Positions 16,784-23,041 of a stretch of DNA of 64,000 bases are shown here, piece by piece (within the stretch, counting starts at the first letter, position 1; the number at the start of each line of letters is the position of its first letter). The stretch spans positions 1-64,000 of the forward strand of contig JAGWVU010000024.1 of NCBI GenBank assembly GCA_018970725.1, in the 5' to 3' direction. The notes under the pieces were generated by a model. The model was not told the origin of the DNA. It did no database searches and worked only from the letters and a program-made list of their open reading frames with translations. A program made the position numbers and the translations under genes. Origin of the DNA: Verrucomicrobiota bacterium. GTDB lineage: Bacteria > Verrucomicrobiota > Verrucomicrobiia > Verrucomicrobiales > DEV007.

Positions 16784-17944
16784 TCAATCGTTCGCCAGGG
16801 CCCACTCGAGAAGAGCTTCCGAGTCTTTGGTGCACCAGTTCCCCGTGCTCCCGAGGATCACACAGATCCGCTCCCGCCCATCACGTTCGGCGCTGCTGAT
16901 GAGGCAGGAACCGGCGGCGTTGGTGAATCCCGTCTTCATCCCGTTGCAAGCCGCAAACTCCCGGAGAACCCGGTTCGTGTTGACCGCCTCCCGCACCGGT
17001 CCGTGATTCAATTTCAACGAGAAGGTCTTCAGGCAAACGCACTCCCGGATGACAGGATTGCCATAGCACGCCCAAGCCAGCAAGGCCATGTCCCGCGCGG
17101 AGGAATGCTGGCCCGGCGCGGTCAAACCGTGCGGATTGACAAAGTGGGAATTCGTCATCCCCAACTCCCTGGCCTTGGCATTCATCTTCTCCGCGAAGGC
17201 CGCTTCCGAACCCGCGTTGTCCCGTGCCAAAGCCTTGGCCACGTCATTCCCGGAGCGCACCAGAAGCCATTTGAGCAAATCCGACCGACGGTAGTTCTCC
17301 CCGGGACGAAACCCCAGAACGGAGGGCTCCACCTCCGTGTCCGAGGCCGCGACCGTGACCATCCGGTCCAATTCCCCCGCCTCCACCACCAACAAGGCCG
17401 TCATCAGCTTCTGGGTGCTCGCCACCGAGGCCGGGGCCCGCGAATTCTTCTCGTGCAGAATCCGCCCGTTCTTCGCATCGATCACCATCGCATGTTTGCC
17501 TACCACCGCCGGTGCCTCTCCTCCCGTCCATGGCTTCACCGGCGGCATGGTCTCACGACTCCGCAACGAAGACTCCCGTGCGCTCACCGCCGCCTCACGC
17601 GCCCGAACCGCCTCCTCGCGGCTCTCCAAGGCCCGCTCCTGCTCCCGCAACAATTGCTCCCGTTCCGCCAAAGCCGTCACCCGCCCCGCCAAGGCATCCG
17701 CGGTCAGGTTCAGGGATTTTTCCCATTCCCTCAGCCGGATCTTCTCCGCCGCCAACGGATCCTTGGGATCGACCGGCTCCTCTTTCACCGGCGCCACCGG
17801 CAGGCCCGGCCGCACGAGCATCGGAACTCCGCCCGGACCAAGGTCCGCCGCCGCCCCGGGTTCCACCGCCGACAACGGAACGGCTCCCAACAGCCAGAAC
17901 GGCAACAAACAAATCGATTGGCAGGCAATTGCTCTCATGGACAT
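16784..17944 (-). CDS. D-alanyl-D-alanine carboxypeptidase with a coiled-coil insert
   Basis: This 386-residue periplasmic serine peptidase (S11, DacA/DacF-like) trims D-Ala from peptidoglycan stem peptides. A signal peptide covers about residues 1-26. Residues 60-132 form a charged heptad region (EREQLLREQERALESREE and repeats) that should be a coiled coil and is not usual in this family. All three active-site motifs are intact: S176-T-Q-K179, S231-G-N233 and K337-T-G339. The C-terminal beta domain seen in DacA is absent. The start may be 17944 or 17938. It lies in a cell-wall gene block with the L,D-transpeptidase and PBP. Confidence 0.92.
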   Translation of the reverse strand: MSMRAIACQSICLLPFWLLGAVPLSAVEPGAAADLGPGGVPMLVRPGLPVAPVKEEPVDPKDPLAAEKIRLREWEKSLNLTADALAGRVTALAEREQLLREQERALESREEAVRAREAAVSARESSLRSRETMPPVKPWTGGEAPAVVGKHAMVIDAKNGRILHEKNSRAPASVASTQKLMTALLVVEAGELDRMVTVAASDTEVEPSVLGFRPGENYRRSDLLKWLLVRSGNDVAKALARDNAGSEAAFAEKMNAKARELGMTNSHFVNPHGLTAPGQHSSARDMALLAWACYGNPVIRECVCLKTFSLKLNHGPVREAVNTNRVLREFAACNGMKTGFTNAAGSCLISSAERDGRERICVILGSTGNWCTKDSEALLEWALAND

Positions 17945-18040
17945 CCCAACCTTTGAAGAATAGACACGGCCCCTCTCCCCGGCAACTTTTTCACCCGGCC
18001 CGCGATTGTCAATCGCGGGAACCGTGCCATCGGTGCCCTT

Positions 18041-18322
18041 GTGCTCGCTGTCGTCGTCCTCATTGAATGCCATTCCGGTCAAGGTGATCAACTCATCCCG
18101 GCACTGGAACACAACGCCAGCCATTCCCGGCTGGAGCCCACCTGCCACCGCTGGGAGTGGTCGCGCCATATCGATAATCCGGACAAATTCGCCATCTGCG
18201 AGCTCTACGAGGATGCCGCCGCCTTTGCCGCACACAAGGAGACCGCCCACTTCGCGGCTTGGAAAACGGCCTCCGACGGCCTGATCGCGAGGAAGGAATC
18301 CGGACAGTATCTCCTGCCCTGA
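18041..18322 (+). CDS. ABM-type small monooxygenase-like protein
   Basis: This 93-residue protein fits the ABM/YgiN fold: an N-terminal strand LAVVVLIECHSGQGDQL, the conserved helix-strand SRLEPTCHRWEWSRHIDNPD, then ICELYEDAAAFAAHKETAHF with the typical His-x3-x-His spacing. The first codon is GTG (18041); no in-frame ATG lies before the domain, and an upstream ATT at 18005 would extend it. It is divergent from the carboxypeptidase (96 bp) and ends 19 bp from the converging L,D-transpeptidase gene. Confidence 0.75.
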   Translation: MLAVVVLIECHSGQGDQLIPALEHNASHSRLEPTCHRWEWSRHIDNPDKFAICELYEDAAAFAAHKETAHFAAWKTASDGLIARKESGQYLLP

Positions 18323-18341
18323 GCGCCGTGGGAAGAGGCCT

Positions 18342-19091
18342 TTACCGGACCCGATAGGCTCCCGGACCGACCTCGACTTGCGGGGGACGCCGATTCAATT
18401 CAAACGCGAGGTAAACCGCCCGCAATTCCGTCCAGAACGGATACCAGGGCGAGCCCGACCCGGCGTCCATTCGTTCGTCCGTCATCCGGAAGGGAAACGA
18501 GTGGACCGGGACCGCCATCTGCCCCCGTTCCAACGCTGCCGAAACGAGGGAGTAGATTTGTTCGATGGAATCGTCCGTCATCGCGAAGCAGCCGATGGAA
18601 ACTCGCGCACCGTGTACCATGATGAAGCTGCCGGTCCGATCCCGGGCGATGTCATAAGCGTTGGGATACCCGACATTGAAGGAGAGGTGAAAGCGGCTCC
18701 GGGGATTCAAGGCCCCCGGTTTGACCTCGTAACATCCTTCCGGCGCCTGGCCATCGCCCTCGGCAAGTTTCGGTCCCAGCCCCCCGGAAAGCGCCGCCAC
18801 CCGGTAGTTGCGGAGCCGCACGAAGGGCTGCCCCGGCTCCGGCTCCATCCAAAGCTCCAGTTCCCCGCTCTCCTTGAAAATCCGGAGGAAGACCGGGTCC
18901 CCCCACCCGACTCCCAATCGGCTCATTTCCGGTTCCAACAACGGCCGGACGCGGGCCAGCGCTTGGCCCGCGCGATCCGGAGCGTCCCCCGGCACGGGAC
19001 TGTCCCCGCCGGCATACGGCCCCTCGTCCCGGGCATTCCCCCCGCTCATGGTGCCTAGAAGACAGACAAGGAAGAACACGAGTCCACGCAT
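18342..19091 (-). CDS. L,D-transpeptidase (YkuD-like / murein LD-peptidase)
   Basis: This 249-residue secreted protein has a signal peptide (MRGLVFFLVCLLGTMSGGNA) and a YkuD-type catalytic centre: His160-Gly followed by S165-I-G-C168 in MVHGARVSIGCFAM, where Cys168 is the nucleophile. Upstream are LFLRIFKESGELELWM-like strand residues and YEVKPGALNPRSRFHLSFN. Enzymes of this group make 3-3 cross-links, attach lipoproteins or trim stem peptides; the closest in layout is the YafK type. It starts 15 bases after the stop of the PBP gene, so the two are probably one transcript, which matters because the PBP has a damaged transpeptidase site. Confidence 0.88.
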   Translation of the reverse strand: MRGLVFFLVCLLGTMSGGNARDEGPYAGGDSPVPGDAPDRAGQALARVRPLLEPEMSRLGVGWGDPVFLRIFKESGELELWMEPEPGQPFVRLRNYRVAALSGGLGPKLAEGDGQAPEGCYEVKPGALNPRSRFHLSFNVGYPNAYDIARDRTGSFIMVHGARVSIGCFAMTDDSIEQIYSLVSAALERGQMAVPVHSFPFRMTDERMDAGSGSPWYPFWTELRAVYLAFELNRRPPQVEVGPGAYRVR

Positions 19092-19106: not shown

Positions 19107-21800
19107 TCAGTCGAAAACGATGCGCGCCGCGGAAGGAACCGGGACCGCAACCGGTTTGGGGACGCTTTCCAGAATCGGAGGAAGTCCGTCCTCCGTCAGC
19201 GGAAGCGGAGCGGGGAGCGGTTCAGGCGGCGGTCCGGCCAGGGAGGAATCGGCGGCGGGCCGGTCCGATGCCCCGTTGACGGGAGCCGGGGTCCCACCGA
19301 TAGGGACGGCACGGATGGGCACCGCCACCGGTGCGACCGGAGTCCCGGATGGGTCGGTCCCCGGGGCTCCGGGAACTTCCGGCGCCGCACCAATGACCCG
19401 CGCCTTGAGAATGGTGGCCTTGCGCGGCGGAGGCTGCAACGAGGCATACGGATCGTAATTGATCACGGTGCGTCCCTGCAGGACCACCGGTTTCACCGCC
19501 CGCCCGTAGTCCCCGAGGCGGCGCGGACGGTTGTCGGGCAGGATGCTGGTCAACAATTGATCCGTGGAGGGAATCAGCCGGGTGCGGTCGATCTCGCCGT
19601 CCGGTCCATGAACGATGCATTCCTCCTTCACGAAAAGCCCCGGGGAAAGATACTCCTCGAACGTATCGTCGATCCGGCGCTTCTCCCCTTCCACTTCCTC
19701 GAAATGAAAACAGCGCTCCGTGGCAGGCTGTCCGGAAACCCGGCAGAGGGTGACCTTTTGGGCCCCGATGGGCGGTTGCAGGGCCGAGGCGGGGAAGATC
19801 GTGTTGGCCTTGTTCATCACCTCCACCCAGGCCGGTAAAACGGTCCGGTTGCTGAAGGCTCCCGGATAGATCGTCCGGGCCTTGTCGAACCCGGCCCAAA
19901 CCGCGCAAGTCAACTGATCCGTGTAGCCGATGAACCACTCGTCCCGGAACCCGTAGGCGGTTCCCGTCTTGCCCGCGACCGGATAATCCCCGAGGCCGTG
20001 GGTTTCATAAGCGATCTTGCCGGTCCCCTCGCGCATCACATCTTGCAGGGCCCCGTGGATCTGGTAGGCGGTGTAGGGATCACAAACCTCCACATCCGAG
20101 TTCCGGAGTTCATGCTGGAACTTCTTTTTCCCACCCTCATCATAAATCGCGGCGATGATGTAAGATTCCTTGGGGCGTCTCCCCTGATTCGGAAACGTGG
20201 TGTAGGCCAGCGCCATCTCACTGATGCCCGCCTCGCTGTTCCCTAGCAGGGTGGAGTTGTATTTTTGGATGTCCCCTTCGAAGGAGATCCCGGCCCGCTT
20301 GGCAAAATCGACCACCTTCGAAAGCCCCACCTCCTCCCCGAAACGGACCGTCGCCGCGTTTTTCCCATAGGCCAGCGCCCGCCGCGCCGTGATCAACCCT
20401 TCCTGCTCGTTCGCCGGACTTTCCACGCCCCATTCCCCGAGGATTCCCGTGGTGGCGCCAATCATGACCTTCCGCTCATCCATCGGACTGTCCTCCACCC
20501 GCGATCCAGGATACTGGTGGGCCGGGCGTTGCGCGTAACCCGATGCAAAGACGAATGGAGTGAACGCGGTCCCCGGCTTGCGACGCGCTTGCACGGCCCG
20601 GTCGAAGGCACTGTGGGCATAGTCACGGCCCCCGATGAGCACACGAACCGCGCCCGTCTTGTTGTCGAGCGCGATCACCGCGCCCTGCAAATAATCCGGA
20701 GACGGCGGTTTCCGCTCCTGCTGCTGATCCTCTTCCTCGCTGACGTTCTGCTGGTCCCACTTCTCGAGAATCCGTTCATACTGCGCGTAGGTCTGGCCCT
20801 CGAAGGTCGGGTTGTCCTCGATTCTGGCCAACTGCTTGACCAAACTCTGGTAGGCGGTCTCCTGCAGCACGGAATCGATCGTCGTGTAAATCCGGAACCC
20901 GCCCTCATAGGCGTCCTTCGGACCGACCAACTCCACCGTCTTCAACCGGATCCGCTCGAAGGCATATTCGAAAGCCCGTTTGCGATCCCGGCCCCGCTCC
21001 CGCGTCTTCACCGGCAGCCCCACGTAGTGCTTGGCCTCGTCCGCCTTGATCATCCCCTCCTCCACCATCCGGCCGATCACGTGATTCCGGGCTTTCTCCG
21101 CCGCCTTGGGGTTCTTGAAAGGGGAGAGATTCTCGGGGCTGCGGATCAGCCCGGCCAAAATCGCCGCCTCGTCCACCTCAATCTCGCTCACCTCCTTGCC
21201 GAAGTATCCCTTGGAAGCCGCGTTGACCCCGTAGTAACCACTGCCGAAATAAATCCGGTTCAGATACATCTCCATGATCTCGGACTTCGAGAACTCCTTC
21301 TCGATCCGCATCGCCAGAAACGCTTCCACCAGCTTGCGCTTGTAGGATTTCTCGAAAATCCCGAACGAGTTCCTCGCCAGCTGCTGGGTGATCGTGCTCG
21401 CCCCTTGCGTGTTCGAACGGTCCTTCAAGTTCCGCAAGGTAGCCCGCAAAATCCCCATCCGATCCACGCCGTCATGATCGTAAAACCGCGAATCCTCCGT
21501 GGCCACCACCGCGTCCGTCATATGCCGCGGAATCCGTTCCAAAGGCACCGGGTCACGGTTCAACACAAAAATCCGCCCGATCTCCTGCCGGTTCCGGTCG
21601 TAAATGATGCTCGCCTTTTCCAGCTTGCTGATCGCGTCCAAATCAAAGTCCTGCGCCTTCAAATAAAACGGCTGCACGTGGACATACACCGCCACGCATC
21701 CCGCCACCACCGTGCCCACGACCAGGAACACGAGGAACTGAAACCATTTCCGAAAGAAGATCGGCGGCTTGTAGCGATAGGCTGATTCGTACCTCGGCAT
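19107..21800 (-). CDS. Class A penicillin-binding protein with degenerate transpeptidase motifs
   Basis: This 897-residue bitopic membrane protein has one TM helix (about residues 17-37 after ATG 21800) and a GT51 glycosyltransferase domain that looks complete: Glu102 in VATEDSRFYDHDGVDRMG, GASTITQQLARN, and RIYFGSGYYGVNAASKGYFG. The transpeptidase domain (about 370-680) keeps K611-T-G-T614 but where the family has Ser-x-x-Lys it reads T411-A-F-T414 (KPGTAFTPF), and the Ser-x-Asn motif is G479-K-N481. The nucleophile, its base and the second Ser are all changed. The C-terminal 100 residues are Pro/Ala/Val-rich. It is upstream of and likely co-transcribed with the L,D-transpeptidase. It probably polymerises glycan without D,D-cross-linking. 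Confidence 0.9.
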   Translation of the reverse strand: MPRYESAYRYKPPIFFRKWFQFLVFLVVGTVVAGCVAVYVHVQPFYLKAQDFDLDAISKLEKASIIYDRNRQEIGRIFVLNRDPVPLERIPRHMTDAVVATEDSRFYDHDGVDRMGILRATLRNLKDRSNTQGASTITQQLARNSFGIFEKSYKRKLVEAFLAMRIEKEFSKSEIMEMYLNRIYFGSGYYGVNAASKGYFGKEVSEIEVDEAAILAGLIRSPENLSPFKNPKAAEKARNHVIGRMVEEGMIKADEAKHYVGLPVKTRERGRDRKRAFEYAFERIRLKTVELVGPKDAYEGGFRIYTTIDSVLQETAYQSLVKQLARIEDNPTFEGQTYAQYERILEKWDQQNVSEEEDQQQERKPPSPDYLQGAVIALDNKTGAVRVLIGGRDYAHSAFDRAVQARRKPGTAFTPFVFASGYAQRPAHQYPGSRVEDSPMDERKVMIGATTGILGEWGVESPANEQEGLITARRALAYGKNAATVRFGEEVGLSKVVDFAKRAGISFEGDIQKYNSTLLGNSEAGISEMALAYTTFPNQGRRPKESYIIAAIYDEGGKKKFQHELRNSDVEVCDPYTAYQIHGALQDVMREGTGKIAYETHGLGDYPVAGKTGTAYGFRDEWFIGYTDQLTCAVWAGFDKARTIYPGAFSNRTVLPAWVEVMNKANTIFPASALQPPIGAQKVTLCRVSGQPATERCFHFEEVEGEKRRIDDTFEEYLSPGLFVKEECIVHGPDGEIDRTRLIPSTDQLLTSILPDNRPRRLGDYGRAVKPVVLQGRTVINYDPYASLQPPPRKATILKARVIGAAPEVPGAPGTDPSGTPVAPVAVPIRAVPIGGTPAPVNGASDRPAADSSLAGPPPEPLPAPLPLTEDGLPPILESVPKPVAVPVPSAARIVFD

Positions 21801-21922
21801 GGATCGTCGGAAGGACTCCAGATTGCGCCTCCGGCGCTTAGGTACGATTATGGACCGCTTTCCGCCTCCCGGCAAGTCGCCTGCAGGAAAGTGTCAGGTC
21901 CAATCGCCCGTTCCTCAAACCC

Positions 21923-23041
21923 ATGGGTCTCCAACAAGATCTCCTCGCCATCGTCTCCCGGCATCCGACGGGCATTTCCTTCGCCGAATTCATGCACGCC
22001 GCACTTTATGATCCCGGCTCGGGCTATTACTCAAGCCCCGGACCGATCGGGCGCGAGGGAGATTTTTTCACCAGCGTCTCCGTCGGCCCCTGTTTCGCCT
22101 TCCTCCTCGCACGCCAGATCCAACAGATCCTGGAATCCCTTTGCCCCCACCCGGAATTCCCGCCGCAGGTGGTCGAGCAAGGAGCCCACGACGCCCGGCT
22201 CTCCCTCGACCTGATCGCCGCGGCCGGGCCCCCCTGCCCCTGGCGACACCGCATCGTGGAACCGAATGCCCGGTTCCGCGAGGTCCAGTCCCAACGGACG
22301 GACGGCTCCATCACGATTTTCCCTTCCCTGGCGGAGGCGGCCCCGATCCGGGGAGTTTTTCTCTGCAACGAGCTGCTCGACGCCTTCCCGGTCCGTAAAC
22401 TCCGCTTCGGCGGCGGTCGGTGGAGGGAAATCCGCGTGGTGGGCCGGGATGGACGACTGAGCGAGGAGGCATTCGACCTGCCATTCCACCCCGCGGAAGT
22501 TTGGCCATGGCTCCCCCGGGCTGCCCCACCGGGGTTCACCACGGAGGTTTGCGAGGGGATCGATCCCTGGCTCGACGAACTCACCGCGGCGATGGAGCGC
22601 GGCGTGGCTCTGATCATCGATTACGGTGGCACCGGCTCCGAGGCTTTCCTGCCGGAACGGGCCGCGGGAAGCGTGCGGGGCTACCATCGGCACCAGCGCG
22701 TTGCCGATCCTTTGGAGAATCCGGGCTCGGTGGATCTCACGGCGGACGTGAATTTCACGCAGGTCTGGCTCGCGGCCCGGGCGCGCGGCTGGCAACTCGC
22801 GGGCTTTGCCGACCAAGCCCAGTTCCTCACGGGCATCGCTGCCGCCTTGCCCGCCCCCGAAACGCTGCCCGGACCGCTGCGCCGCCAGTTCCAAACCTTG
22901 ATCCATCCGGGATTTATGGGCCGACGCTTCCGCGTTCTCGCCCTGACCCGGGGCACCCCGGCACCTCTAGTCCTCGATGGGTTCCGCTTCTCCGGGATCA
23001 ACGCGGAACCGTTGGAACGTCCCGCAAACTGGCCCCTGTGA
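21923..23041 (+). CDS. SAM-dependent methyltransferase, MidA/NDUFAF7 family
   Basis: This 372-residue protein matches COG1565 (DUF185), whose eukaryotic member NDUFAF7 methylates an arginine of complex I subunit NDUFS2. Family features are the start ISFAEFMHAALYDPGSGYYS, then GREGDFFTSVSVGPCFAFLL, FLCNELLDAFPVRKLRF, and the SAM-region end ALIIDYGGTGSEAFLPERA. The bacterial substrate is not known. It is divergent from the PBP gene (122 bp) and its last 44 bases overlap the converging membrane-protein gene. Confidence 0.9.
   Translation: MGLQQDLLAIVSRHPTGISFAEFMHAALYDPGSGYYSSPGPIGREGDFFTSVSVGPCFAFLLARQIQQILESLCPHPEFPPQVVEQGAHDARLSLDLIAAAGPPCPWRHRIVEPNARFREVQSQRTDGSITIFPSLAEAAPIRGVFLCNELLDAFPVRKLRFGGGRWREIRVVGRDGRLSEEAFDLPFHPAEVWPWLPRAAPPGFTTEVCEGIDPWLDELTAAMERGVALIIDYGGTGSEAFLPERAAGSVRGYHRHQRVADPLENPGSVDLTADVNFTQVWLAARARGWQLAGFADQAQFLTGIAAALPAPETLPGPLRRQFQTLIHPGFMGRRFRVLALTRGTPAPLVLDGFRFSGINAEPLERPANWPL

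Follow-up and report, generated by a model that had tools for sequence, protein, structure and literature searches.

A verrucomicrobial lineage of class A penicillin-binding proteins joining an intact glycosyltransferase to a predicted pseudo-transpeptidase domain

Introduction

Class A penicillin-binding proteins (PBPs) are the standard example of a bifunctional wall synthase and are targets of beta-lactams. In proteins such as PBP1A (TIGR02074), a GT51 glycosyltransferase (GT) domain (PF00912) is combined with a transpeptidase (TP) domain (PF00905), whereas the monofunctional GT51 enzymes MtgA and SgtB (TIGR02070) only polymerise glycan, and the pairs of a SEDS protein and a class B PBP (RodA-PBP2 and FtsW-FtsI) place polymerase and cross-linker on separate proteins. 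In C. difficile, PBP1 with a dead TP domain can still sustain septum synthesis, but PBP1 with a dead GT domain cannot (PMC12154710), indicating that a class A PBP can perform its GT function when its own TP chemistry is lost. In a partial collection of publications outside subscription journals, we found no account of dead or degenerate TP domains of the kind described below, either in class A PBPs generally or in verrucomicrobial PBPs.

Here, we analyse a 64,000-nucleotide stretch of a Verrucomicrobiota genome (contig JAGWVU010000024.1, hereafter the window) in which one gene specifies a class A PBP-like protein whose GT51 domain is intact and whose TP-like domain is predicted to be catalytically inactive, and we examine its distribution, evolution and possible role in the class to which it belongs.

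Gene and domain organization

The gene occupies 19107..21800 on the minus strand, as do all features of the protein given below, and encodes 897 aa from the ATG at 21800. Its open reading frame extends to a TTG at 21875 (922 aa), and residue numbers here follow this longer frame, 25 being subtracted to count from the ATG. The ATG, already taken as the start in an earlier examination of the letters by a model (the sequence-only reading), is the likelier of the two, because similarity to the nearest relative, G001, begins at that point. A hydrophobic stretch at residues ~42-67 (21675..21752), helical in the structural model, forms the N-terminal transmembrane helix, and it is followed by the GT51 domain (21066..21578), whose PF00912 score of 210.9 bits (215.1 in the genome search) lies far over the cut-off. 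The EDxxFxxH, GxSTxTQQ and ExYLN motifs of GT51 enzymes are all present, in agreement with the initial observation that the GT motifs remain: EDSRF with the catalytic Glu E127 (21483..21497), STITQQL (21378..21398) and EIMEMYLN (21258..21281). Among the 115 sequences compared below, E127, D128, S160, Q165 and N206 are invariant, and E202 is found in 106.

C-terminal to it is a TP-like domain (19905..20684) with a PF00905 score of 64.4 bits (67.4 in the genome search), the weakest of the five PF00905 matches in the genome. Within it, TAFT (residues 436-439, 20559..20570) stands at the place of Ser-x-x-Lys, with both nucleophile and general base gone; the alignment places GKN (residues 504-506, 20358..20366) at that of Ser-x-Asn; and KTGT (residues 636-639, 19959..19970) is retained. 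A loop between the first two motifs (residues 466-485, 20421..20480) ends in GILGEWGVE, and the protein closes with a tail that is Pro/Ala-rich near its end (19110..19778) and poorly conserved (71% identity to G001). An AlphaFold model, built from the window protein together with related-locus sequences, has a class A PBP fold with a pLDDT of 72; as the loop region falls under 50, too weak to position the loop, its expected placement at the rim of the cleft is taken from the alignment.

The degenerate active site

The sequence-only reading had identified TAFT, GKN and KTGT at exactly these positions, and each proves to be precise. The register of the first motif is correct, because RRKPGTAFTPF of the window protein aligns with RRQPGSSFKPF of canonical, structurally solved PBP1a sequences. 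A true Ser-x-x-Lys elsewhere in the domain, the possibility by which the first reading proposed to be judged, is absent: residues 380-700 contain no S-x-x-K and no [SY]-x-N, which excludes both a misalignment and a hidden motif within this range. Sequencing error can likewise be discarded, since a second assembly, G001, carries identical TAFT, GKN and KTGT motifs at 85% protein identity. The loss of the first Ser, its Lys and the second Ser supports the original prediction that the window protein lacks D,D-transpeptidase activity. The retained KTGT and the near-universal Thr could still reflect residual, altered chemistry.

Distribution and motif states in relatives

A protein search covered 115 relatives as well as evenly drawn samples of 189 genomes from the class and 288 from the phylum. 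Orthologues occur throughout the order of the window and reach several further orders of its class, with 62 of the 189 class genomes being carriers by our own reading of that sample. At the threshold applied, the 288 phylum genomes yielded no orthologue outside the class. In a quick tree of 130 rows, these proteins form one clade of 91 rows (SH-aLRT 99), the sister group of which consists of the canonical class A PBPs that these bacteria also encode. As a separate observation, many genomes of the class, in families f10, f12, f17, f31 and elsewhere, encode only about two PF00905 proteins and lack a strong match to the window protein, which suggests that class A PBPs are repeatedly absent.

Motif states were counted in the 115 sequences that bear the loop, which come from 112 genomes and include the window protein. 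The nucleophile position is occupied by Thr in 110 and by Ser in five, and the Lys position is still K in 24 and lost in 91, with T, L, F, M, A, I, V, Q or G in its place. In the second motif, the Ser is lost in 41/115 and the Asn in 35/115, whereas KTG (or KSG) is retained in 103 and lost in 12. All 28 canonical sister rows, by contrast, have S, K, S, N and KTGT. The sequence-only reading had asked whether the TAFT/GKN change is conserved, and the answer supports it: the Thr runs through nearly all of a clade spread over several orders, within which the Lys and the second Ser were lost repeatedly. Given the 24 relatives that keep the Lys, the window protein appears to represent an advanced state of a stepwise decay. 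Three additional, deeper paralogues of the clade (L111, L113 and L118, in G060, G065 and G063) have also lost the Lys of KTG (RNGS, RNGM, TTGT).

The clade apparently extends to Akkermansia. In genus g19, represented by many closed genomes of 2-3.5 Mb, most sampled members carry TAIL or TAVL, SKI and KTGT. We take g19 to be Akkermansia because a g19 M60 peptidase is nearly identical to PDB entry 7SCI, presumably an A. muciniphila protein. A metagenome-assembled genome deposited as Akkermansia muciniphila (L052, CAMCXS010000003.1) matches G001, a member of the genus to which the window belongs, instead of g19, so its name looks wrong; L052 and G001 appear, indeed, to be one and the same contig. 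In three Akkermansiaceae-type genomes (G202, G282 and G236), a second dead class A PBP lies in tandem with a canonical class A PBP (L194:3297-5051, L195 and L204); it has GAAFEP or GSAFEP in place of SxxK, ATGS in place of KTG, and the SxN region is missing.

Order of loss

A 76-row tree requires a minimum of 3 changes at the Ser/Thr position, 8 at the Lys and 10 at the Ser of SxN. These numbers fit a history in which Ser would have changed to Thr first and once, at or very near the base of the clade, with the Lys and the SxN Ser probably lost repeatedly later.

Four genomes of genus g4 (G005, G021, G028 and G034; loci L093, L185, L186 and L187) combine a full S-x-x-K, S-x-N and KTG set with the loop of the clade. 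Their nested position in the quick tree implies a reversal, and their membership in the window's own family favours this reading, so that a return to an active transpeptidase is possible; a basal placement of g4 is, however, not rejected (AU p 0.253). For the same reason, we do not use the g4 Ser as proof of late loss, since it may represent either reversal or retention. Judging by the complete motif set of g4, the fold can apparently still accommodate catalysis.

Selection on the domain and a clade-specific loop

Strong purifying selection acts on the TP domain. Across close pairs, its dN/dS is about 0.015-0.15, similar to that of the GT domain, and between the window protein and G001 the values are 0.032 for TP, 0.018 for GT and 0.158 for the C-terminal tail, ratios that are rough because dS is near saturation. 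Relative conservation is also similar between the two sister lineages, with TP/GT entropies of 1.77/1.48 in the pseudo-TP clade and 1.57/1.34 in the active clade. The conserved Thr is encoded by all four ACN codons, indicating selection for the amino acid itself. The loop, with the pattern G...GxLGEWGxE, is near-invariant at positions 466, 473, 477, 479, 481, 483 and 485, all of which are absent from the canonical paralogues. The gain of a near-invariant loop of its own makes the domain look repurposed rather than merely broken. Neutral decay of a redundant TP activity into a non-functional domain, which the parallel losses of Lys and of the SxN Ser might suggest, is largely refuted by this selection, by the loop and by the Thr held clade-wide, and we give it almost no credence.

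Gene neighbourhood

Upstream of the PBP gene lies a divergent gene for a PF02636 SAM-dependent methyltransferase (21923..23041, plus strand), which most members of the order, and some members of other orders, likewise have upstream of their orthologue; it is missing beside the orthologue in g19 and in most f3 genomes. This conserved adjacency supports orthology and serves as its anchor. Directly downstream lies a gene for a YafK/DpaA-like YkuD protein that keeps SIGC (18342..19091, minus strand), followed by one for an S11 D-Ala-D-Ala carboxy/endopeptidase-like protein that keeps its SxxK as STQK (16784..18250, minus strand), the position of which is not conserved. In the flanks of relatives, examined to ~5 kb, neither the YafK-like nor the S11 gene lies beside the orthologue, apart from one S11 match at L148. 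Both (window 16784-19091) are absent at this position in the nearest relative, G001. An operon of PBP, YafK-like and S11 genes acting as a functional unit was considered and dropped, as the neighbours are unconserved among relatives, and the YafK-like gene in particular is probably outside the system.

Other wall enzymes of the same genome

Profile searches of the window genome (4.9 Mb, 96.5% complete) identified five PF00905, three GT51 and thirteen YkuD proteins and one SEDS match. Besides the window protein, there are two class A PBPs with intact motifs, one on contig C41 (GSLFKPF, SRN, KTGT) and a PbpC-like one on contig C37 (GSALKPF, SLN, KTGT), and two class B PBPs (PGSTFK and PASTFK, both with SxN and KTGT). 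Among the five PF00905 proteins, the window protein is the only one to have lost its TP motifs, and the four intact PBPs lead us to predict that the cell retains D,D cross-linking. A second class A match is present in 60 of the 62 sampled carrier genomes.

Proposed function and alternatives

The reading that we favour, with a probability of about 0.72, is that the window protein is a membrane-anchored GT51 polymerase whose TP domain is a pseudoenzyme serving as a non-catalytic scaffold or allosteric module, with cross-linking carried out in trans; we infer its catalytic inactivity, GT activity, scaffold role and partners. According to this proposal, an ancient class A PBP duplication within the class would have yielded one canonical bifunctional copy and one copy with Thr in place of the nucleophilic Ser. 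In many lineages, the Lys that serves as general base and the Ser of SxN would then have drifted off, and the fold, KTG(T) and the new loop at the expected rim of the dead cleft would have come under strong selection. In the cell, the GT51 domain would turn lipid II into nascent glycan strands, the pseudo-TP module would hold or activate the GT domain and dock a partner, and the stem peptides would be cross-linked in trans by the canonical paralogue, by class B PBPs and possibly by L,D-transpeptidases. The wall of Verrucomicrobium spinosum is reported to be canonical, with tetra-tetra dimers (PMC12283558), in keeping with D,D cross-links made by other enzymes.

More tentatively, the GEWGxE loop might offer a surface on which a partner specific to the lineage docks or is gated. 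This partner could be the canonical paralogue, an outer-membrane activator, a class B PBP or an L,D-transpeptidase, and the result would be a GT51-based split polymerase and cross-linker derived from a duplicated bifunctional PBP of which one member became a pseudoenzyme.

Another view is that the pseudo-TP domain acts as a non-catalytic stem-peptide receptor, in which KTGT would bind D-Ala-D-Ala or a processed peptide and its occupancy would signal cross-linking demand to the GT domain. Consistent with this, K636 and T639 are retained in 85 of the 91 clade rows and G638 in 87, while positions Lys439 and Ser504 vary; however, KTG shapes the beta3 strand and may persist for the fold alone, and it is the motif lost in the 12 sequences mentioned above. 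We regard a receptor of this kind as unlikely.

To a similarly low degree, the protein might be the polymerase partner of L,D-transpeptidases, its strands being mainly 3-3 cross-linked by YkuD enzymes so that its own D,D activity would be superfluous. Carriers have a median of 9 YkuD proteins, against 2 in the remaining genomes, and family medians (14 families with, 43 without) differ at p = 7e-8 by a Mann-Whitney test, although these families share ancestry and are not independent, and carriers are also richer in PF00905 proteins. Being confounded by ancestry, the association was rejected as proof of coupling. The 13 YkuD proteins of the window genome and the YafK-like gene directly downstream point in the same direction as the medians, but that neighbour is unconserved and the YafK/DpaA family is named as an amidase; the tetra-tetra dimers reported for the V. 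spinosum wall (PMC12283558) also stand against mainly 3-3 cross-linking.

Far less plausible is a threonine-nucleophile transpeptidase that would still be active in the T-x-x-K members, such as those of G210 and G067. The prevalence of Thr and the 16 of 115 sequences that combine T-x-x-K with intact S-x-N and KTG are in its favour, but the Lys is absent in 91 sequences, and in 71 of the 115, the window protein among them, both the Lys and S-x-N are gone, with no base left. Thr nucleophiles are not established for the PBP transpeptidase fold.

Significance and comparison with known systems

Monophyly, the shared loop and the clade-wide Thr together argue for a new subfamily, the verrucomicrobial pseudo-TP class A PBP. 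For one of the two class A lineages of a major class of bacteria, we predict blindness to penicillin and GT activity alone, a state maintained through long periods of evolution with the dead domain under selection. These proteins offer a natural test of what a TP domain does for a GT51 polymerase beyond cross-linking, as well as a traceable stepwise loss of an active site, from Ser to Thr and then of Lys and SxN, with one possible reversal. In addition, for these bacteria, Akkermansia apparently among them, PF00905 counts overstate how many D,D-transpeptidases and how many penicillin targets there are.

With bifunctional class A PBPs, the window protein shares domain order, fold, GT motifs and KTGT, but it is without SxxK and SxN, has a loop of its own and scores 487.9 bits against TIGR02074, below the cut-off of 508.75. 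Its predicted activity, glycan polymerisation only, is that of MtgA and SgtB, whereas its full-length TP-like domain under selection and its TIGR02070 score of 139.2 bits (cut-off 182.65) set it apart from them. The likeness to SEDS and class B PBP pairs is one of working principle only, since its polymerase is a GT51 enzyme and its partner is putative. The tandem PBP of L194, L195 and L204 is also a GT51 protein with a dead TP domain, but it lies in the canonical branch of the tree and represents an independent loss. Finally, the engineered C. difficile PBP1 S487A retains GT function without TP chemistry (PMC12154710), as is predicted for the window protein; that change is a laboratory mutation abolishing growth, whereas the state of the window protein is natural, ancient and selected.
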